From contig NZ_MLFS01000003.1 of NCBI RefSeq assembly GCF_002095485.1, positions 1 to 64,000 of the forward strand: DNA of 64,000 nt, given 5' to 3'. Origin of the DNA: Pantoea wallisii. GTDB taxonomy: Bacteria > Pseudomonadota > Gammaproteobacteria > Enterobacterales > Enterobacteriaceae. Both the position numbers and the translations under genes were made by a program. Position 1 is the first letter of the stretch. Every line of letters starts with the position of its first letter. The notes under the pieces are model-generated. The model was given only the letters and a program-made list of their open reading frames with translations. It searched no databases and had not been told where the DNA came from. Shown one piece after another: positions 528 to 47,851 of the stretch.

Positions 528-1757
528 TTAACGAAGGTTGACCAGGGTGTTAAGAATCTGGTCCTGCGTTTTGATGGTCTGGCTGTTAGCCTGGTAGTTA
601 CGCTGCGCAACGATCATGTTGACCAGCTCTTTACTCAGGTCAACGTTGGATGCTTCCAGCGCGCCGGAGGTCAGGTTGCCGTAGGTACCGGTACCCGCCA
701 GGCCGACTGCCGCCTGACCAGAGGAGTTAGTGGCTGACCAGACGTTGTCACCTTCCGACTTCAGACCTTCCGGGTTAGAGAAGCTCGCCAGCACGATCTG
801 ACCCAGCAGCTGGGTTTTCTGGTTGGAGTAAGTGCCGGTGATGGTGCCGTCATCGTTGATGGTGTAGCTGGTCAGATCGCCCGGGGCATAGCCATCCTGC
901 GTCGGGTTACCGAAGTTGGTTTTGCCGGTGTTCTGCTGCAGGCTGCCGAGCACGCTTAAAGTGATCGTACCGTTAGCCGCACCGTTGGCACCGGCAATAT
1001 TCAGCGAGGCCGATGTCTGGCCTAAGGTCGTTGTTCCGCCCTGAGTCATTGACTTCAGCTTACCGCTTTCATCGAAGCTCAGCCCGAAATCGCCGGCAGC
1101 CTGACCCGTGGTGGAGTCGATAGCGTGTACGGTCCACTCGTTGTTAGCGGTTTTAACGTAGTACAGATCCAGTGCGTGGTCGTTACCCTGTGAGTCATAC
1201 ACGGTCACGGTGCTTTTGGCGTTGTAGGTATCTACGTTAGTGGTGGTGAAAGCGCCGCCGGTTGGCACTGCATCGGTTGAGTTCAGGTTAGAGACCATGG
1301 TCGCCGTGGTGGTCGCGCGCGCGGACATCTGAGTGGTAGGAATACTCAGCGCCACCGGGTTCGCACCGGTCTGGATGGTTGGCGGTGTACCGCTAGCCGG
1401 GTAGCCGGTGACGGTCAGGCCTTGAGTGTTCACCAGGTTACGGTTCTCATCCAGCGTGAACTGGCCGTTACGGGAGTAGAACACGCCGCCGCTGGCATCG
1501 GTCAGACGGAAGAAGCCGTTGCCGCTCAGCGCGACGTCCAGGCCGCGGCTGGTTGACGTGGTGGTACCGTCGTTGAAGTTCTGAATCACCGCAGCAACTT
1601 TAGTACCCATACCGACGTTAGAGCCGGCAAACATATCGGCGAAGGCGATGGTGCTGGATTTAAAACCGGCCGTGGCCGAGTTAGCGATGTTGTTACCAAT
1701 GACGTCAAGGTTGCTGGAGGCAGCGCCCAGGCCGCTCACCGCTTGTGAAAAAGACAT
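528..1757 (-). CDS. flgE: Flagellar hook protein FlgE
   Basis: FlgE polymerises into the flexible hook that joins the rod to the filament. The protein has 409 residues, close to the roughly 400 of enterobacterial FlgE. Its N-terminus MSFSQAVSGLGAASSNLDV followed by GNNIANS is the classic hook/rod signature, and the C-terminus (NMIVAQRNYQANSQTIKTQD) is the amphipathic helix that packs with it in the tube core. The middle part is rich in Thr, Ser and Gly, as usual for the exposed hook domains. It lies between flgD and flgF in the leftward flg operon, with a 25-bp gap from flgD that holds a purine-rich ribosome site. Confidence 0.98.
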   Translation of the reverse strand: MSFSQAVSGLGAASSNLDVIGNNIANSATAGFKSSTIAFADMFAGSNVGMGTKVAAVIQNFNDGTTTSTSRGLDVALSGNGFFRLTDASGGVFYSRNGQFTLDENRNLVNTQGLTVTGYPASGTPPTIQTGANPVALSIPTTQMSARATTTATMVSNLNSTDAVPTGGAFTTTNVDTYNAKSTVTVYDSQGNDHALDLYYVKTANNEWTVHAIDSTTGQAAGDFGLSFDESGKLKSMTQGGTTTLGQTSASLNIAGANGAANGTITLSVLGSLQQNTGKTNFGNPTQDGYAPGDLTSYTINDDGTITGTYSNQKTQLLGQIVLASFSNPEGLKSEGDNVWSATNSSGQAAVGLAGTGTYGNLTSGALEASNVDLSKELVNMIVAQRNYQANSQTIKTQDQILNTLVNLR

Positions 1758-1782
1758 GTAATTTCTCCTGCTAAGGGGTTAG

Positions 1783-2454
1783 TCAGAGAATCTGACGAAT
1801 TTCATCGAGGGTCGCGGAGCCCATGGTGCCGAGATCCAGTTTTGCGGTGTTATTCACGGTGCTGATGCCATTGACATAGGCGTAGTTCAGCGGCTGTGCC
1901 ACCAGTTGGGTGCTGCCATTGCTGGCGGCGAGTGAAACGGTATATTTGCCATCAGGCGCGGTGGTGCCATCGTCCAGCTTGCCATCCCAGGAGAAGGTGT
2001 GAACGCCAGCGCTCAGACCGCCGAGATCGATGCTGCGTACTACGCTGCCGTTACCGTCTTTGATGGTGACGCTGGTGGCGGTTGACGCAGTACCCAGCTC
2101 AACGCCAAACGGCGTAGTGGTGCCTTTGCCGACCAGCACCTGGCTGCCTTTGATCATCACGCCATGCCCAATCAGCGTTGAACTCTGCAGCGACTGGCTG
2201 GTACTTATCTGGCCGGAGATCGAACCCAGCGTGGTATTGAGTTTTTCAATGCCGCTCAGGGTATTGATCTGCGTCAGCTGAGTGGTCAGCTGACTGTTAT
2301 CCATTGGATTGGTCGGATCCTGGTTTTTCAGCTGGGTTACCAGCATGTTCAGGAACTGGTTCTGCAGCTCCTGCGCACTGTTCCCGGTACCGGCGCTACT
2401 GGAGCTGAGTACCGTTGGGTCGAGGTTGTCTTTAATCCCTACTGCAAGACTCAT
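1783..2454 (-). CDS. flgD: Flagellar hook-capping scaffold protein FlgD
   Basis: FlgD caps the growing hook and guides FlgE assembly; it is lost when the hook is finished. The protein has 223 residues, typical for the family. The N-terminal segment FLNMLVTQLKNQDPTNPM is the conserved FlgD signature (about residues 34-51). The C-terminal half contains the FlgD Ig-like core with a turn SWDGKLDDGTTAPDG that matches the usual GxxDxG-type loop. It lies 12 bp downstream of flgC and 25 bp upstream of flgE on the same strand, so it belongs to the flgBCDEF transcription unit. Confidence 0.97.
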   Translation of the reverse strand: MSLAVGIKDNLDPTVLSSSSAGTGNSAQELQNQFLNMLVTQLKNQDPTNPMDNSQLTTQLTQINTLSGIEKLNTTLGSISGQISTSQSLQSSTLIGHGVMIKGSQVLVGKGTTTPFGVELGTASTATSVTIKDGNGSVVRSIDLGGLSAGVHTFSWDGKLDDGTTAPDGKYTVSLAASNGSTQLVAQPLNYAYVNGISTVNNTAKLDLGTMGSATLDEIRQIL

Positions 2455-2466
2455 GATGCTTCTCCG

Positions 2467-2871
2467 TTACTGACCCATGGTGAGGGTTTTCATCATCATT
2501 GACTTCACCGTGTTCAGTACTTCGACGTTTGCCTGATAGCTGCGCGACGCGGACATGGTGTTAACGGTTTCTGCCACAACATCGACGTTAGGCATTTTGA
2601 CGTAGCCTTTCTGGTCGGCCATCGGGTTACCCGGGTCGTAAACCAGTTTGGCCGGCGTTGGATCGTTCACCACACCGGCCACTTTGACGCCGCCGGTTGC
2701 CGCACCCTGCGCGGCATCGGTCTGGAAGATCACCTGCTTCGCTACGTATGGCTGGCCGTCCGGACCGGTTACGCTGTCGGCGTTGGCCAGGTTACTGGCG
2801 CTGACGTTGAGCCGCTGCGACTGCGCGGTCATCGCCGAGCCGGCGATATCAAAGATATTCAGCAATGCCAT
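2467..2871 (-). CDS. flgC: Flagellar proximal rod protein FlgC
   Basis: FlgC is a proximal rod subunit of the basal body. The protein has 134 residues, the normal size. The N-terminus [20 protein letters not shown] leads into [10 protein letters not shown], the rod-family signature, and the C-terminus carries [20 protein letters not shown], typical of FlgC. It starts 2 bp after the flgB stop codon, so translational coupling is likely. It continues into flgD after 12 bp. Confidence 0.98.
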
Positions 2872-2873
2872 GG

Positions 2874-3287
2874 TTATTGCCCCTGCAGAACACTCATCAT
2901 GCCTTTAATCTGGCTGCTGATGAGGGTGAGATCGGTTTGATATTTCAGGCTGTTATCAGCAAATTGCGTACGTTCACGATCCATATCCACGGTGTTTCCA
3001 TCCGCGGCAGGCTGATCGGGAATGCGGTACAGCAGATCCAGTGACGGCTGTGAGTTGGTTTGCGCTTCAATGTGCCGTGAAGACGTAACGTTGAGCGCCA
3101 GGCCACTGCCCGCCGCACGGCCGTTCTGCATCACCTTGCTCAGCTGGCTGGCAAAGTCGATATCACGAGCCTGGTAGCCCGGGGTATCGGCGTTGGCTAT
3201 GTTGGACGACAGGATCTCCTGACGCTGAGCCCGCAAATTTAACGCTTCAGTACCAAATCGCAGCGCGGCATCGAGTTTGTCGAGCAT
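2874..3287 (-). CDS. flgB: Flagellar proximal rod protein FlgB
   Basis: FlgB is the first rod protein of the flg operon. I take the ATG at 3287, which gives 137 residues starting [20 protein letters not shown]. It is preceded at good distance by a GGAGGA ribosome site and matches the usual FlgB N-terminus. An upstream in-frame extension to 3398 is open but would run through the flgB/flgA promoter region and lacks family character. The motif [16 protein letters not shown] (about residues 26-41) is the rod signature. This is the promoter-proximal gene of the leftward operon and is divergent from flgA. Confidence 0.97.
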
Positions 3288-3441
3288 GCTTCCTCCGCGA
3301 ATGAGAATTTCGAGCTGACAGCTTAATTGGACAAAAGCAAGGGCTATCGTCTGAATAGCAGCAAAAATCACAGCTATTTTTGACCTTGAATTTTTCACAT
3401 CGCGCGTAGACTCGGTGCCATCTTCATGTCAGGAGGCGTTC
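3288..3441. promoter_or_regulatory. Divergent flgB / flgA promoter region
   Basis: This 154-bp AT-richer interval separates the divergent flgB and flgA starts and must hold both promoters. In related enterobacteria this interval is bound by FlhDC (class II control). I cannot point to an exact FlhDC box by eye. The flgA side carries a strong AGGAGG ribosome site just before the ATG at 3442. Confidence 0.55.
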
Positions 3442-4101
3442 ATGCGCAGATCGACTTTTTTGCTGGCCACGCTTTGGCTGGCCTTTGCCGCGCCCGGCTA
3501 TGCAGCCGACCTCAGCGCGCAGCTGACGGCATTTTTTAAAGCGCGCGATCCGCAGCATGCCGCCGGCATGACGGTGGTGGTGCGGACGCCACAGACGCAA
3601 TGGCCCGCGTGCGAGACACCGCAACTGCTGCTGCCGGGCAATAGCCGCCAGTGGGGTAATCTGAGCATTGCTGCCAACTGCGGGCAGAATCGTCGCTATC
3701 TGCAGGTACAGGTGCAGGTGACCGGGCAGTATCTGGTGGCGAATCGCCAGTTAGCGCGTGGCACCAGCGTAGGCGCCAGTGACTTCCGTCTGGAGAGTGG
3801 CCGGCTGGATACGCTGCCGGCCCGCGCGCTGATCAACGCGGATAACCTGGTGGATGCCATTGCCCTGCGCGATATTCCGCCAGGCCAGCCGGTAACGACC
3901 TCCATGCTGCGTCAGCCGTGGCGGGTGAAAGCGGGTCAAAATGTGATGGTGATTGCCAGCGGAAATGGGTTTAATGCCAGCAGCGAAGGACGCGCGCTGA
4001 ACAACGCTGGCGCAGCACAAATGGTACGTGTGAGGATGGGAAATGGTCAGGTTGTTAGCGGTCGTGTCGACGCGGATGGGAATATTCTGATATCGCTATA
4101 A
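3442..4101 (+). CDS. flgA: Flagellar P-ring assembly chaperone FlgA
   Basis: FlgA is a periplasmic chaperone needed for assembly of the FlgI P-ring around the rod. I start at the ATG at 3442, 7 bp after AGGAGG; an upstream in-frame GTG at 3415 lacks a ribosome site. The 219-residue product begins with a signal peptide (MRRSTFLLATLWLAFAAPGYA, cleavage expected after GYA). The C-terminal part has the SAF-type domain features GQPVTTSMLRQPWRVKAGQN and QVVSGRVDADG typical of FlgA. It is divergent from the rod operon and followed by flgM. Confidence 0.96.
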   Translation: MRRSTFLLATLWLAFAAPGYAADLSAQLTAFFKARDPQHAAGMTVVVRTPQTQWPACETPQLLLPGNSRQWGNLSIAANCGQNRRYLQVQVQVTGQYLVANRQLARGTSVGASDFRLESGRLDTLPARALINADNLVDAIALRDIPPGQPVTTSMLRQPWRVKAGQNVMVIASGNGFNASSEGRALNNAGAAQMVRVRMGNGQVVSGRVDADGNILISL

Positions 4102-5094: not shown

Positions 5095-6632
5095 CTACGC
5101 GGTGGTGCGGCGGGCAAAATCGCGAGGCCGGAAGCCCATCAAACCCAGCATGACAAAGTAGGCGCCGCCGCCGACGGCACAGACCGCTGCCAGACGAATC
5201 AGCCGCCACCACATATGCCCCTCTTCCCATGCGGGCATCAGCTGCAGAATGCCCACCAGCGCCGCGGCCATGACAACCACCGCAATCAACAGGCGCACCA
5301 GGAAACGCATCCAGCCAGGCTGTGGCTGGAAGATCGCCTTCTTACGCAGCTGCCAGTACAGCAGCGCCGCATTCAGGCACGCCGCCAGACCAATCGACAG
5401 TGACAACCCGGCGTGTTTCAACGGGCCAATAAAGGCCAGGTTCATCAGCTGCGTTACAATCAGCGTCACAATCGCAATCTTCACCGGTGTTTTAATGTCC
5501 TGACGCGAATAGAAGCCCGGCGCCAGCACTTTCACCACAATCAGCCCCATCAGACCCACAGAGTAGGCGATCAACGCACGCTGCGTCATCGCTGCATCGA
5601 AAGCGGTAAATTTGCCATACTGAAACAGCGCCACGGTAAGCGGGCCGGAGAGGATGCCCAGCGCCACCGCACTTGGCAGCGCCAGCAGGAAGCAGAGGCG
5701 CAGCCCCCAATCCATCAGGCGTGAATACTCATCGTGATTGCCGCTGGCAAAACTCTTCGCCAGCGACGGCAGCAAAATGGTGCCCAGCGCCACGCCCAGC
5801 ACGCCGGAGGGGAACTCCATTAAACGGTCAGCGTAATACATCCACGACACCGAGCCCGATACCAGGAACGAGGCGAAGATGGTATTGATGATCAGCGAAA
5901 TCTGGCTCACCGACACGCGAGAATCGCCGGGCCCATCTGCCGCATCACGCGCCAGACGCCGGCATCGCGCAGGTTCAGGCGCGGTAACACCAGCATGCCA
6001 ATCTTCTTGAGGTGCGGCAGCTGATAGCACAGCTGCAACAGGCCACCGACCACCACCGCCCACGCCAGCGCCATGACTGGCGGATTGAAGTGCGGCGCAG
6101 CAAAGACGGCAAAGCCAATCATGCTGATGTTAAGGAGCGTCGGGGCAAATGCCGGTACCGAAAAACGGTTCCAGGTATTAAGAATGGCACCGGCAAGCGA
6201 GGCCAGAGAGATCAGCAGAATGTACGGGAAGGTCACGCGCAGCAGCGAACTGGTCAGCGCGAACTTGTCGGCGGTATCGGCAAAACCCGGTGCCGTGACC
6301 ACGATCACCCAGGGTGCGGCGACCATACCCAGCACGGTGACCACGGCCAGCACCAGCGTCAGCAATCCGGAGACGTAGGCGATAAACACCCGCGTGGCCT
6401 CTTCACCCTGTTTGCTTTTATATTCAGCGAGAATCGGAACGAAGGCCTGGGAGAACGCCCCTTCTGCGAAAATCCGGCGCAGCAGATTGGGCAGTTTGAA
6501 CGCCACGAAGAAGGCGTCGGTAGCCATACCGGCACCGAATACGCGCGCCACAATGGCATCACGGGCAAAGCCCAGCACGCGGGAAAACAGGGTCATCGAA
6601 CTGACCGCAGCCAGCGATTTCAGCAAATTCAT
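5095..6632 (-). CDS. murJ: Lipid II flippase MurJ (MviN), frame broken near 5918
   Basis: MurJ flips lipid II across the inner membrane for peptidoglycan synthesis and is essential in E. coli. The N-terminal part ([20 protein letters not shown], with [12 protein letters not shown]) ends in a stop right after [10 protein letters not shown]. The rest ([20 protein letters not shown] onward to FARRTTA) is open in another frame overlapping it. Restoring one base (CTCGCGTG to CTCGGCGTG on the coding strand) gives [13 protein letters not shown] and one 512-residue protein; E. coli MurJ has 511. About 14 hydrophobic segments are present. Because the gene is essential, a true break is unlikely unless another flippase exists. 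mviM lies 121 bp upstream on the same strand. Confidence 0.95.
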
Positions 6633-43216: not shown

Positions 43217-45049
43217 TTAGTGTTTCAGCGAGTGGTATATTTTTTCCGCCAAAGCGAAGGAGATACCCGGTACTTTAGCGATTTCGTCAACGCTGGCGTT
43301 CATCAGCGGTTGCAGGCCCCCCATGTACTTCAGCAGCTGCTGACGACGTTTTGGACCGACCCCTTCAATGCTCTCCAGCGCGCTGGTATTTTTCACTTTA
43401 GCCCGTTTTTTGCGGTGACCGGAAATTGCGTGATTGTGAGCATCATCACGAATGTGCTGGATGACATGCAGCGCCGGTGAGTCCGGCGGCAGCGAAACGC
43501 CCTCGCCTTCCGCTTCAAAGAACAGCGTTTCCAGACCGGCTTTACGATCGCTACCTTTGGCGACACCGAGCAGAATCGGCCGATCTTTATCCCATGACAC
43601 ATCCAGCTCAGCAAATACCTGCTTCGCCTGCGCCAGCTGGCCTTTGCCGCCGTCGATCAGAATGACATCGGGGATTTTGTCCGCTTCCAGCGCTTTACCG
43701 TAGCGGCGGCGCAGCACCTGGTTCATCGCAGCATAATCATCGCCGGGCGTGATGCCCTCAATATTGTAACGCCGGTAGTCAGAACGCAGCGGACCGTCAC
43801 GGTTGAACACCACGCAGGAGGCGATGGTCTGTTCACCCATAGTGTGGCTGATGTCGAAACACTCCATGCGACCGATGCTATCCAGCTCCAGGAAGCTCGC
43901 CAGCGCAGCCAGACGCTGCTGAATGGTGGAGTGCTGGGAGAGCTTCGTGGTCAGCGCCGTGGCCGCATTGGTGCGCGCCAGCTTCAGATACCGGGCGCGA
44001 TCGCCACGCGGTTTAGTCTGAATATTCACTTTACGCCCCGCCAGCTCACTCAGCGATTCGGCCAGCAGTTCGCGCTCCGGCAGGGTGAAATCAAGCAGAA
44101 TATCTGCCGGCAGGGTGCGCGCTTCGCTCCCCTGCAGATAGAACTGCCCGACAAAGGTCTGCACCACTTCGGTCAGCTCCGTATCCGCAGGCACTTTCGG
44201 GAAGTAGCTGCGGCTGCCCAGCACTTTACCCTGTCGGATAAACAGCACGTGCAGGCAGGCCATGCCGGCATCATACGCAACACCCATGACATCAAGATCG
44301 TCACCCTGATTGGAGACAAACTGCTTTTCAGTCACACGACGTACCGCCTGAATCTGATCGCGCAGGCGTGCCGCCTCTTCAAAGCGTAATCCTTCACTGG
44401 CCTGCTCCATGCGTGCCACCAGCTGATTGATGACCTGGTCATCTTTACCCGCCAGGAACAGCCGCACGTAATCGGTCTGCTGCGCGTATTCATCCTCGCT
44501 TACCAGCCCGGCCACGCACGGACCAAGACAACGGCCTATCTGATACTGCAGACACGGGCGCGAGCGGTTGCGGTACACACTGTTTTCACACTGGCGAATC
44601 GGGAACACTTTCTGCAGAAGCGCCAGTGTTTCACGCACCGCGTAGCCATTCGGAAACGGGCCGAAATATTCGCCTTTGGCATGCTTCGCACCGCGATGCA
44701 TCGCCAGCCGCGGATGAGGATCGCCGCTAAGGAAAATATAAGGATAGGATTTATCGTCACGCAGCAGCACGTTATAACGCGGCTGGTAGAGCTTGATGTA
44801 ATTATGCTCAAGCAGCAGCGCTTCGGTTTCGGTGTGCGTTACCGTAACATCGATGGTGTGGATGTTACTGACCAGCACTTCAGTTTTGCGGCTCCCCACC
44901 TGCGTGCGGAAATAGCTACTGAGGCGCTTTTTCAGGTCTTTGGCTTTGCCGACATAGATCACCGTTCCTGCCGCGTCGTACATGCGATAGACGCCGGGCT
45001 GGCTGGTTACGGTGCTGAGAAAGGCTTTGGAATCAAAAACGTCATTCAC
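43217..45049 (-). CDS. uvrC: UvrABC excinuclease subunit C
   Basis: UvrC makes both incisions in nucleotide excision repair. The 610-residue protein (E. coli 610) has the GIY-YIG domain ([20 protein letters not shown], residues 18-37), a UVR motif ([20 protein letters not shown], near 210), the RNase-H-like EndoV domain ([20 protein letters not shown]) and tandem helix-hairpin-helix at the end ([20 protein letters not shown]). Its start overlaps the uvrY end by 8 bp, the conserved uvrY-uvrC arrangement. Confidence 0.98.
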
Positions 45050-45701
45050 TACTGATTAACGGCTCCGCATTGAACAGGCCATGTCGGATGGCCAGATGCG
45101 TTAACTCGACATCGCCACTGATGTTCAGTTTGCTGAACATACGGTAGCGATAGCTGTTAACGGTTTTGGGGCTGAGATTGAGCTGCTCGGAAATTTCCGT
45201 CACCTTTTGCCCTCGGGTGATCATCAGCATAATCTGCAATTCCCTTTCCGACAAACAGCTGAAGGGTGATTCGGCTTTTTGTGGCTCGATCTGGCTCAGC
45301 GCCATCTGCTGCGCGATATCTGAGGCAATGTAACGCTGGCCGGCGTGGACCGACCGGATTGCGCTCACGACTTCCTGTGGCGCTGCCCCTTTGCTCAGGT
45401 AGCCTGCGGCACCGGCCTGCATCACTTTGGCGGGCAGCGGGTTTTCAGTGTGAATCGTTAGCATGATGATGCGGATGTCCGGGTTGTAACGCACAATTTT
45501 GCGCGTCGCCTCCAGGCCGCCGATGCCGGGCATGTTCATATCCATCAGCACCACATCTACCGGATGATTGCGGCACCACTTCACCGCATCTTCACCACAC
45601 GCCACTTCCCCGGCAATTACCAGTCCCTTCATATCTTCCAGTATGCGACGAATACCGGCGCGTACCAGTTCATGGTCATCAACAAGAAGCAGGCTGATCA
45701 A
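45042..45701 (-). CDS. uvrY: Response regulator UvrY (GacA type)
   Basis: UvrY is the response regulator of BarA-UvrY and activates the CsrB/CsrC small RNAs. The 219-residue product has a receiver domain ([20 protein letters not shown], phospho-acceptor Asp in [13 protein letters not shown] at about residue 54, Lys in GYLSKGAAP) and a LuxR-type HTH ([20 protein letters not shown], later [16 protein letters not shown]). It overlaps uvrC, so both are cotranscribed. The sdiA/luxI pair nearby is on the same strand, further upstream. Confidence 0.97.
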
Positions 45702-46133: not shown

Positions 46134-46361
46134 ATGAGTGATGAAGACTTTGTAACGTCGCGCGATACACAGGCACTGGCTGACGAAGTGGCCTGCCTGA
46201 AAATGATGATCACCCTGATTCTGAAGGGAATGGGCCAGGCGGATGCGGGTAAAGTGATCATTAACATGGAGCGCTACGTACAGAATGCGCTGGCGGATAA
46301 ACCGCAGGCTGAGGTGTTCAGTAACACCATTCGTCAAATTAAAACCGCTTATCGTCAGTAA
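46134..46361 (+). CDS. yecF: YecF family protein (DUF2594)
   Basis: YecF is a small conserved enterobacterial protein of unknown function. From the ATG at 46134 (AAGGAG upstream) it has 75 residues: MSDEDFVTSRDTQALADEVA, then CLKMMITLILKGMGQADAGK and the end TIRQIKTAYRQ, matching E. coli YecF in length and blocks. An upstream in-frame start at 46104 is less likely. In E. coli it lies between uvrY and sdiA; here luxI lies between it and sdiA. Confidence 0.93.
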   Translation: MSDEDFVTSRDTQALADEVACLKMMITLILKGMGQADAGKVIINMERYVQNALADKPQAEVFSNTIRQIKTAYRQ

Positions 46362-46369
46362 GCGGCGCT

Positions 46370-46396
46370 CCCCGCGCACCCTGCGCGGGGTATTTA
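46370..46396. terminator. Terminator between yecF and the AHL synthase
   Basis: CCCCGCGCA-CCC-TGCGCGGGG stem followed by TATTTAG; it serves the convergent yecF and luxI-type genes. Confidence 0.75.
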
Positions 46397-47008
46397 GCTG
46401 TGTGACTGCCAGTTGACCATGACGCCCAGTGAAGGCAGTACCTCCTCCGGACTAAATCGACGCGTACCGCGATACTTCTCTGCCAGCGCTGGCTGCTGAA
46501 CCGGAATACGAATAGCAAACAGATTATCTTCTGACTGAATCAACCCCGGCGACAGCGGCTCATACACCACATTATGCTGCTCAAACATCTTCTCCAGCAT
46601 TGGCGTAGCGGAACTGATCAAGTACTCCATGCCGCTCAGCTCTGCCAGCTGTACTGAGTGCCAGAGAATATTCAGCGGCAATTCGGCATCCACATCCAGA
46701 CGCGCCGAGTAGCGCGACATTTCCCACACTTTGTCCTGATCAAACGGCAGTACCATGCCTTCCGGCACTTCCGGCTCATGCCATGGCAGCAGACGTGCGC
46801 AGCCGCAAATGCCCTTACGCGCGGTCCAGGCGATAAGCCAGGTAACATCAGAGCGATCATAGCGATCGTACTCTTGACCCGGTGTGCTGAGACGCGGCGG
46901 AATCGACCAGCCTTCGCCCCGCGCAAAAACGCTGTAACGATAAGTGCCCAATTCGGCCAACAGAGAGGACGGCATATCCTTTAGCTGTGTTTGAATTATT
47001 TTCATCAT
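46394..47008 (-). CDS. Acyl-homoserine lactone synthase (LuxI family)
   Basis: This enzyme should make an N-acyl-homoserine lactone from S-adenosylmethionine and an acyl carrier. The 204-residue protein carries the LuxI invariant residues in order: R24 and F28 (YRYSVFARGEGW), W34, E46/D48/D51 (GQEYDRYD), R72 (GCARLLP), and E96/R99 (WEMSRYSA). Two adjacent ATGs (47008, 47005) follow AGGGG. It lies 120 bp downstream of sdiA on the same strand with a lux-box palindrome between. In the literature, such synthases in Pantoea and Erwinia (PhzI/ExpI types) have been proposed as the lost partner of SdiA. The acyl chain length cannot be read from sequence. Confidence 0.93.
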   Translation of the reverse strand: MMKIIQTQLKDMPSSLLAELGTYRYSVFARGEGWSIPPRLSTPGQEYDRYDRSDVTWLIAWTARKGICGCARLLPWHEPEVPEGMVLPFDQDKVWEMSRYSARLDVDAELPLNILWHSVQLAELSGMEYLISSATPMLEKMFEQHNVVYEPLSPGLIQSEDNLFAIRIPVQQPALAEKYRGTRRFSPEEVLPSLGVMVNWQSHS

Positions 47009-47099
47009 GCGCCCCTGACATCCTCATGTTTGCAATGATTTGTTAGCGCCAGCCTGGCGAAGTTTCCGGCGCAGGGTAGACAACTGATTGCGGGTAAGG

Positions 47100-47119
47100 A
47101 ACTACTAAAATTAGTAGTT
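47100..47119. promoter_or_regulatory. Lux-box palindrome upstream of the AHL synthase gene
   Basis: AACTACTAAAATTAGTAGTT has perfect 9-bp arms around a central AA and fits the LuxR-type consensus NNCT-N12-AGNN. It lies 10 bp past the sdiA stop, about 92 bp before the synthase start. With the box near -42, the transcript would begin around 47067, and TGTCTACC at 47076-47083 (leftward strand) would be the -10. This suggests SdiA-AHL control of the synthase. Confidence 0.8.
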
Positions 47120-47128
47120 GCTATTTTG

Positions 47129-47851
47129 CTAGATCAGGCCAATCGCTGCGGCATAACAGGCAATTTGCGTTTTATTGGAAACATTAAAACGCTTTTGCAT
47201 ATTTTTCTGGTGAAAATTCACCGTGTGTTCGGATATCGCCAGAATAAGCGAAATTTCCACAGAGGTTTTTCCTTCTGCGGTCCATTTCAGTATTTCCAGT
47301 TCACGCTGGCTAAAATCATTGGATAAAACCACCATCGAACTATCATTCAGCCGATCCAGCACGCGCAAACTCAGTTCCGCCAGGAAATGCAGTTGCACTT
47401 CCAGCTGAACGCGTCTTAGCTGGGTCTGGCCCGATCGTTGCGATGATATAGATAATATACCAATGGCACGATTTGACGCCATTGCCGAGCACGAAAAGCC
47501 GCTCTGCAGTCCCGCCGCATTCGCTTCTGCCCAAAAAGCGCCCGCCTCAGCAAAAACATCCTGCGTCCACTCGACGCCGCGCCCTGGCTGCTGGCACAGG
47601 ACTAATATTGGATCGATGGCGTAAAAATTTTGGCTCTCATACCGCTTTAACCACTTTTCCGGATAGGTGCTAAACAGAAAAATGCGCGGCCGGGTAAAAG
47701 GCACGGGATGCTGAACCAGAAAGGCAAACGCATCAAAACCCAGCGCTTCAATATGTGTTTGTAAAAGCGATTTCAATTCCATCACTTCCGTCAGCGCCTG
47801 AAATTGTTTTTCAGTCTCGCCGCGCCAGACGAAATAATTATCGATCGTCAT
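47129..47851 (-). CDS. sdiA: AHL-responsive regulator SdiA (LuxR family)
   Basis: SdiA is the LuxR-type receptor that senses N-acyl-homoserine lactones. The 240-residue product equals E. coli SdiA in length. The N-terminal ligand domain has QHPVPFTRPRIFLFSTYPEK and FYAIDPILV, with the conserved Y/W/D positions. The C-terminal HTH has FSQRELEILKWTAEGKTSVE, SEHTVNFHQKNMQKRFNVSN and KTQIACYAAAIGLI, nearly identical to E. coli. Position beyond uvrY-yecF also matches E. coli. The AHL synthase gene follows on the same strand. Confidence 0.95.
   Translation of the reverse strand: MTIDNYFVWRGETEKQFQALTEVMELKSLLQTHIEALGFDAFAFLVQHPVPFTRPRIFLFSTYPEKWLKRYESQNFYAIDPILVLCQQPGRGVEWTQDVFAEAGAFWAEANAAGLQSGFSCSAMASNRAIGILSISSQRSGQTQLRRVQLEVQLHFLAELSLRVLDRLNDSSMVVLSNDFSQRELEILKWTAEGKTSVEISLILAISEHTVNFHQKNMQKRFNVSNKTQIACYAAAIGLI

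Follow-up and report, generated by a model that had tools for sequence, protein, structure and literature searches.

The window, a stretch of 64,000 nucleotides forming part of a 4.65-Mb draft genome of Pantoea wallisii, carries an intact LuxI-like gene between yecF and sdiA, in the order uvrY (-), yecF (+), luxI-like (-), sdiA (-) (Table 1), as stated in the first-pass annotation of this DNA. E. coli K-12 has the same gene order, with the stops of yecF and sdiA 67 bp apart and without the synthase; the annotation had called the gene "inserted", a word that presumes a direction of change. Pfam and orthologue-profile searches of the window genome yielded one PF00765 and one PF03472 match, both at the sdiA locus, together with a single orthologue-profile match, and found no other LuxI or autoinducer-binding LuxR. 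Seven loci outside the core Pantoea clade (L074, positions 5604-6023; L078, L083, L088, L092, L099 and L102) have a conserved gap of 404-437 bp separating synthase and yecF, whose opposite strand codes for a GlpM-family membrane protein (PF06942, run on L083) that looks broken in L092. In L076, L087 and L091 this gap is of intermediate length, and the window and its near relatives have a far shorter one.

Table 1. Genes and candidate regulatory elements at the sdiA locus, in window coordinates.
Feature	Position	Strand	Basis
uvrY (sirA/gacA) response regulator, conserved neighbour	45042-45701	-	NCBIfam UvrY/SirA/GacA 434 bits (cut-off 280)
yecF (DUF2594), convergent with the synthase	46134-46361	+	NCBIfam PRK10613 123.6 bits (cut-off 100)
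phzI-type LuxI-family synthase, 204 aa	46394-47008	-	PF00765 28.1 bits; model closest to TofI/BjaI/LasI/RpaI; clade
Putative -10 element TACCCT, 21 nt after box	47073-47078	-	Exact TACCCT in 55 of 62 boxed loci; inferred promoter role
lux-type box AACTACTAATTTTAGTAGTT, 20 bp, proposed SdiA operator	47100-47119	-	Conservation, spacing
sdiA (phzR), LuxR-type receptor/regulator, 240 aa	47129-47851	-	PF03472 103 bits, GerE 69.5 bits; NCBIfam SdiA 276.6 bits

The regulator carries autoinducer-binding and GerE domains that both exceed their Pfam cut-offs, and aligns over its full length with the NCBIfam SdiA model PRK10188 at a score below that model's cut-off of 350. Its matches among solved structures are an engineered RhlR (E = 3.7e-64), E. 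coli SdiA (9.9e-63) and natural RhlR (8.9e-50), with QscR (2.4e-28) and LasR (2.6e-22) further away, and its gene adjoins the uvrY/sirA region, the position by which SdiA orthologues are defined in PMC3474713. By place and similarity, rather than by the NCBIfam model, we assign it as an SdiA/PhzR orthologue. SdiA diverges faster than the synthase, with identities to the window proteins of, for example, 81% versus 94% in L004 and 59% versus 80% in L010.

The synthase retains R24, F28, W34, E46, D48, D51, R72, E96, S98 and R99, positions that we take to be the catalytic residues of the LuxI family. In an alignment of 38 rows, R24, F28, W34, E46, D51, R72, S98 and R99 are invariant and D48 and E96 are conserved at 90% or above, bearing out the earlier claim of a complete LuxI-family gene with its conserved positions kept. 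PF00765 itself is passed only narrowly (cut-off 24), over positions 7-109 of 183 and thus in the N-terminal part only; among solved chains the synthase is most similar in sequence to TofI (E = 1.9e-15). An AlphaFold model built from 38 orthologues (pLDDT 79.5) returned TofI, BjaI, LasI and MesI as its first eight Foldseek matches (E = 2.7e-10 for TofI), and in structural re-alignment AHL synthases reached Z-scores of 14.3-15.6, a narrow margin over the 13.9 of the best GNAT of another kind. On this model the protein is of the GNAT-fold AHL-synthase type, with a predicted AHL product. Because the first codon is ATA in three of 66 relatives (L085, L091, L095), its start is probably the second Met codon, at 47005.

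In a tree of 54 rows, RhlI not knowingly being among them, the window synthase and 21 other synthases from sdiA loci form one clade of 22 rows with 100/100 support and a stem of 3.18 changes per column, and 12 second LuxIs of the same bacterial family form another clade apart from it; because the tree brings long branches together, we rely on it for the clade alone. The synthase is thereby placed with the PhzI/ExpI type of a 2012 proposal and not with the EsaI type. Its members stand at the sdiA locus in Pantoea, Mixta, Erwinia, Winslowiella and Izhakiella. Among 392 genomes of the GTDB family, SdiA (E <= 1e-40) is present in 123 and a strong synthase orthologue in 20, of which 16 also have SdiA and four have the synthase alone; ten more genomes carry only weak LuxI relatives. 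Within the window's genus 59 of 61 genomes contain a synthase match (one, of 2.4 Mb, as broken fragments only), the two without being of 2.9 Mb and 1.4 Mb, and in an Erwinia-type genus the match is found in 36 of 37 genomes, the exception being of 3.4 Mb. Such orthologue counts (20/392, 36/37 and 59/61) argue that the synthase does not stand beside sdiA by chance. Relatives were first collected by conserved peptide patterns, which missed divergent orthologues later found by the search of the Erwinia-type genus, and the counts use the orthologue profile or protein because PF00765 misses some clade members (it gives no match in G353). Outside the family, weak matches occur in nine of 368 other genomes of the class (best E = 1.9e-12), from which no origin can be read.

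A LuxI homologue beside an SdiA orthologue near sirA/uvrY is the arrangement described as PhzR/PhzI of Pantoea and ExpR/ExpI of Erwinia (PMC3474713), and the pair is also covered in the available text of a 2025 review (PMC12086679). The proposal that PhzI/ExpI are partners of SdiA, which the first-pass annotation had invoked, thus exists (Sabag-Daigle and Ahmer 2012, PMC3474713), and because the window pair is this published pair, described already in 2012, the core claim is not new. New here are one more species, a candidate SdiA operator and a set of lineages with the synthase only.

Between sdiA and the synthase, 9 bp beyond the sdiA stop, lies the box AACTACTAATTTTAGTAGTT, a 20-bp dyad in which nine of ten pairs match in the window. 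It recurs within two mismatches in 62 of the 63 loci with a near-full-length sdiA match (62 of 66 named loci plus the window), where the symmetric pattern AMCTRCYANNNNTRGYAGKT is exact in 56, has one mismatch in four and two in two, and where all 62 boxes start at -108 to -119 from the synthase start as aligned. The sole locus of the 63 with an open sdiA and no box is that of Pantoea sp. 1.19 (L098); the recognition helix of its SdiA has TVNYHQKNMQKRLN where the window has TVNFHQKNMQKRFN. Because AMCTRCYANNNNTRGYAGKT was drawn from these same loci, other tests of it are the fair ones. Searched genome-wide, it matches exactly once in each of nine sdiA-bearing genomes (nine of the 16 paired genomes, L098's being outside the set), always at this site, and has no exact match in the two sdiA-less genomes searched of five. 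A second, overlapping set of 38 loci from 37 genomes (36 Erwinia-type and one reduced Pantoea; L236 and L254 belong to one genome), sharing many species with the first and with sdiA counted by match length rather than by stops, has the box within two mismatches in all 33 that have an sdiA match above 200 aa. The upstream flanks of the 66 named loci, 316,800 bases in all, contain no match to within two mismatches; being homologous, these flanks are not independent of one another.

Downstream of the box, 58 of 62 loci have a TTGTYTAC block at 16 nt, and 55 of 62 have TACCCT as the hexamer at 21 nt; if TACCCT is the -10 element, the box covers about -53 to -34. In LuxR-activated promoters, according to the available text of PMC4471428, the lux box is centred near -42.5 of the start site, and the arrangement of box, TTGTYTAC block and TACCCT would be that expected of a class II LuxR-activated promoter. 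An earlier description of the box at this locus was not found in the open-licence literature, as far as the available text of, for example, PMC4338825, PMC10134790 and PMC4471428 extends, subscription papers being mostly outside this scope.

A wider SdiA regulon read from the box was rejected, and none is named, on the counts of sites with at most one mismatch: five in the window genome, including the true one, against three for a reversed-pattern control, and 23 over 11 genomes, including nine true ones, against 60 (1-5 per genome for the pattern, 2-12 for the control). A second box-like site of the window genome (G000:C26:49890-49909, L169) is ACCTGCCAGATTTAGTAGTC, with one mismatch. With a stricter pattern across the 392 genomes, exact matches occur in 51 of 107 solo-SdiA genomes versus 19 of 127 SdiA-less genomes of at least 3.5 Mb (Fisher 7e-8), the reversed control giving 55 of 107 versus 59 of 127 (Fisher 0.5); this comparison, with sets chosen by eye, left out the 16 paired, four synthase-only and all smaller SdiA-less genomes, and its p-value is untrustworthy because hits cluster by genus. 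In eight of 12 loci inspected the site falls in the 3' end of what we take to be an MFS-type transporter gene, near genes we label ygaZ or mprA where visible, and coding conservation may be the cause of these sites; E. coli K-12 has no site in the corresponding transporter gene. The enrichment is accordingly treated as a lead only. A recurrent dyad, CCTGCTAAYTTTAGCAGG, often near a contig start, is present in the SdiA-less genomes G024, G035, G173, G253, G255, G379 and others, and is perhaps an unrelated repeat element.

Among eight hand-chosen E. coli stretches, a copy of the box with one mismatch lies 83-102 nt before gadW (L256:9202-9221), in a promoter fragment (-258 to -1) whose activity is raised by SdiA according to the available text of PMC7286202. 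Its PWM score is 15.3, whereas the best score per shuffle of the 52 kb examined averaged 5.5 over 60 shuffles and reached 16.2 at most. Judged by sequence alone, such a match is uncommon yet could still arise by chance, and it is its place in an SdiA-activated promoter that counts. The other reported E. coli targets of SdiA (uvrY, ftsQ, fliE, fepE and rmf, as given in sources including the available text of the review PMC12086679) yielded no match closer than three mismatches in the stretches searched. At the E. coli sdiA locus neither a box (best, four mismatches) nor a synthase remnant was found, and 17 solo sdiA loci, E. coli and 16 others, have no synthase match and no box under four mismatches. 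Just past the stop of ten of 17 solo sdiA genes (L129-L145 without L131; E. coli L115) stands a motif, CTGCGTG[CT]CAGA, that forms an imperfect dyad.

Five loci have an open synthase and no sdiA: those of Erwinia endophytica (L092) and E. psidii (L095), where sdiA pieces are recognisable, and those of a MAG (L100), Erwinia sp. OLFS4 (L102) and genome G086 (L033), where none were found. The box is absent in all five, E. psidii having a three-mismatch site near the expected place. On a tree of 68 loci with these five counted as without sdiA, explaining its distribution takes four changes, of which starred branches force at least three; sdiA has therefore been lost at least three times with the synthase kept, the reverse of the case in E. 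coli. On average, box and sdiA agree in 2.9 of 3 independent pairs (median p = 0.25), an association that cannot reach significance because the losses are few. The box stands at one mismatch beside a broken sdiA in L248 (G792, pieces on different frames) and L073, which recent loss would explain, sequencing error also being possible; L073 is the locus of the stink-bug symbiont Pantoea sp. Eser. Overall, sdiA is not fully open in three of the 62 boxed loci, L073, L071 (P. stewartii CCUG 26359, 222 aa) and L062 (no usual start).

Decay of the receptor-less synthase is not supported, since synthase reading frames are open in all 66 named loci and pairwise dN/dS is low, at 0.08-0.14 in six pairs with an sdiA-less member versus 0.04-0.09 in three computable comparison pairs, with dS near saturation (infinite in four of 13 pairs) and part of the divergence predating sdiA loss. 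The somewhat higher ratio is perhaps a sign of relaxed constraint. A second LuxI/LuxR pair is kept in four of the five sdiA-less genomes (G086, G293, G064 and E. psidii), whereas in the fifth, G031, we found an EsaR-type LuxR but no second LuxI. None lies downstream of the EsaR-type luxR of G031, the position that the second luxI takes in G293; upstream of this luxR is a CRISPR-like array (L162, about 880-3700, some 45 repeats at 61-nt spacing). Tentatively, and on the doubtful side of possible, cells of several Erwinia and relatives might speak the signal and no longer hear it via SdiA; their product, one to which common AHL biosensors would be blind, might act in trans on an EsaR-type receptor or on other species.

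We consider it very probable that the locus encodes a complete SdiA(PhzR)-PhzI quorum-sensing pair, in which signal-bound SdiA at the box activates phzI in a positive feedback. The observed part of this circuit consists of the genes, fold, clade, box and spacing, the uniqueness of the box in the genomes searched and its absence where sdiA decayed. In the proposed mechanism, PhzI, as a GNAT-fold AHL-type synthase, would make an acyl signal; SdiA would bind it and thereupon the 20-bp dyad, located 9 bp past the sdiA stop codon; at class II spacing (about -42) SdiA would recruit RNA polymerase to phzI, and this activation would feed back positively on signal production. We infer the binding of SdiA to the box, activation rather than repression, and the chemistry of the signal. 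A working pair is supported because a lux-type box precedes the synthase and is absent where sdiA decayed, and since the box is present in 62 of 63 loci with sdiA versus none of five without, is unique in nine of nine genomes and has a copy at gadW, SdiA most likely activates its own synthase. Published mutant phenotypes in relatives also favour this reading: per the available text of PMC4989142, phzI is needed for symplasmata in P. eucalypti and was complemented with its native promoter, and per that of PMC4863597, insertions in phzI and upstream of sdiA/phzR render P. ananatis susceptible to grazing.

The annotation's overall reading, of SdiA with its own synthase in the ancestral state, is supported in part: it holds for a cognate-looking pair, given box and clade, while the ancestral state is one of two histories compatible with the data, in which the synthase either was lost on the branch to E. 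coli or was gained in Erwiniaceae. Gain of the synthase beside an already solo sdiA, somewhat improbable in our estimate, draws on the disparity between 20 strong synthase orthologues and 123 SdiAs in the 392 genomes, on named carriers that are all Erwiniaceae or whose names are suggested to be mistaken by 93-94% identity to Pantoea, and on the lack of any synthase match or box under four mismatches at the 17 solo loci. The window SdiA is, however, nearest to RhlR among solved structures, and the partner gene of RhlR is a luxI, in a rhlR-rhlI layout that the sdiA-synthase tandem resembles. PhzI was likewise placed nearest to RhlI in PMC3474713, again against gain. Chance landing of an unrelated, recently moved luxI beside sdiA is by comparison highly improbable, and nothing was found in its favour: one clade holds the sdiA-locus position throughout the five genera listed above and is near-universal in two genera, and the idea that the synthase groups with unrelated moved luxI genes is refuted for the sdiA-locus clade by its 100/100 support in the 54-row tree. 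It is also very unlikely that the box is the site of a LuxR other than SdiA, for instance the EsaR type of many Erwiniaceae; a second LuxR/LuxI pair does exist in many of these genomes, but no second autoinducer-binding LuxR was found in the window genome, and genomes that retain an EsaR-type LuxR after decay of sdiA (G086, G293, G064, G031 and E. psidii) lack the box.

More germane to the signal itself, the circuit may be a non-canonical one built from LuxR/LuxI parts, its product not being a usual short- or medium-chain AHL, a reading we hold to be rather unlikely. In E. pyrifoliae, as reported in the available text of PMC2827408, a gene pair that fits this locus, one member being 45% identical to SdiA, was accompanied by no activation of CV026 or NTL/pZLR4, and an unknown signal was proposed. 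With the biosensors SP19 and CV026, a pagI mutant of P. agglomerans 9Rz4 is reported to show a defect in AHL production (available text of PMC10364316), and both P. agglomerans loci in our set (L059, L103) carry phzI. These two published results hint that the synthase product is no common short-chain AHL, and the very weak PF00765 score (28.1 bits) and the long stem (3.18 changes per column) of the sdiA-locus synthases point the same way. Against this, the synthase keeps its catalytic residues and its model sits among AHL synthases, phzI may have been silent in those assays, and oxoC6 is assigned to the PhzI-type pair, by citation, in PMC3474713.

Returning to SdiA as activator of phzI, a near-invariant single candidate operator, a natural control in lineages where it is gone after sdiA long decayed, and the gadW match together make the SdiA binding site, self-regulation and the original signal directly testable in laboratory E. 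coli. The box suggests where this sensor family may bind DNA, and the lineages without sdiA suggest that a quorum-sensing pair can lose either of its halves.

Compared with known systems, the locus is closest to PhzR/PhzI and ExpR/ExpI, the window synthase being 85% identical to the synthase at the same place in P. ananatis LMG 2665 (L069) and 97% identical to the P. dispersa DSM 30073 orthologue; the operator, promoter spacing, per-genome uniqueness and sdiA-less lineages are absent from the main text of PMC3474713, and the window genome differs in that no second LuxI was found there. The solo SdiA of E. coli occupies the orthologous place, is similar over its full length to the window SdiA (44%; E = 9.9e-63) and has a like recognition helix, but has neither synthase nor box beside its gene, with 67 bp to yecF. 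RhlR chains are, besides SdiA, the nearest solved relatives of the window SdiA, and the box has the CT-N12-AG form of las-rhl boxes, whereas the nearest solved relative of the synthase is TofI, RhlI standing outside the tree. The second pair common to the same Erwiniaceae genomes, which we label EsaI/EsaR type, is distinct, its LuxIs scoring 127-253 bits on PF00765 versus about 31 or less for the sdiA-linked synthases.
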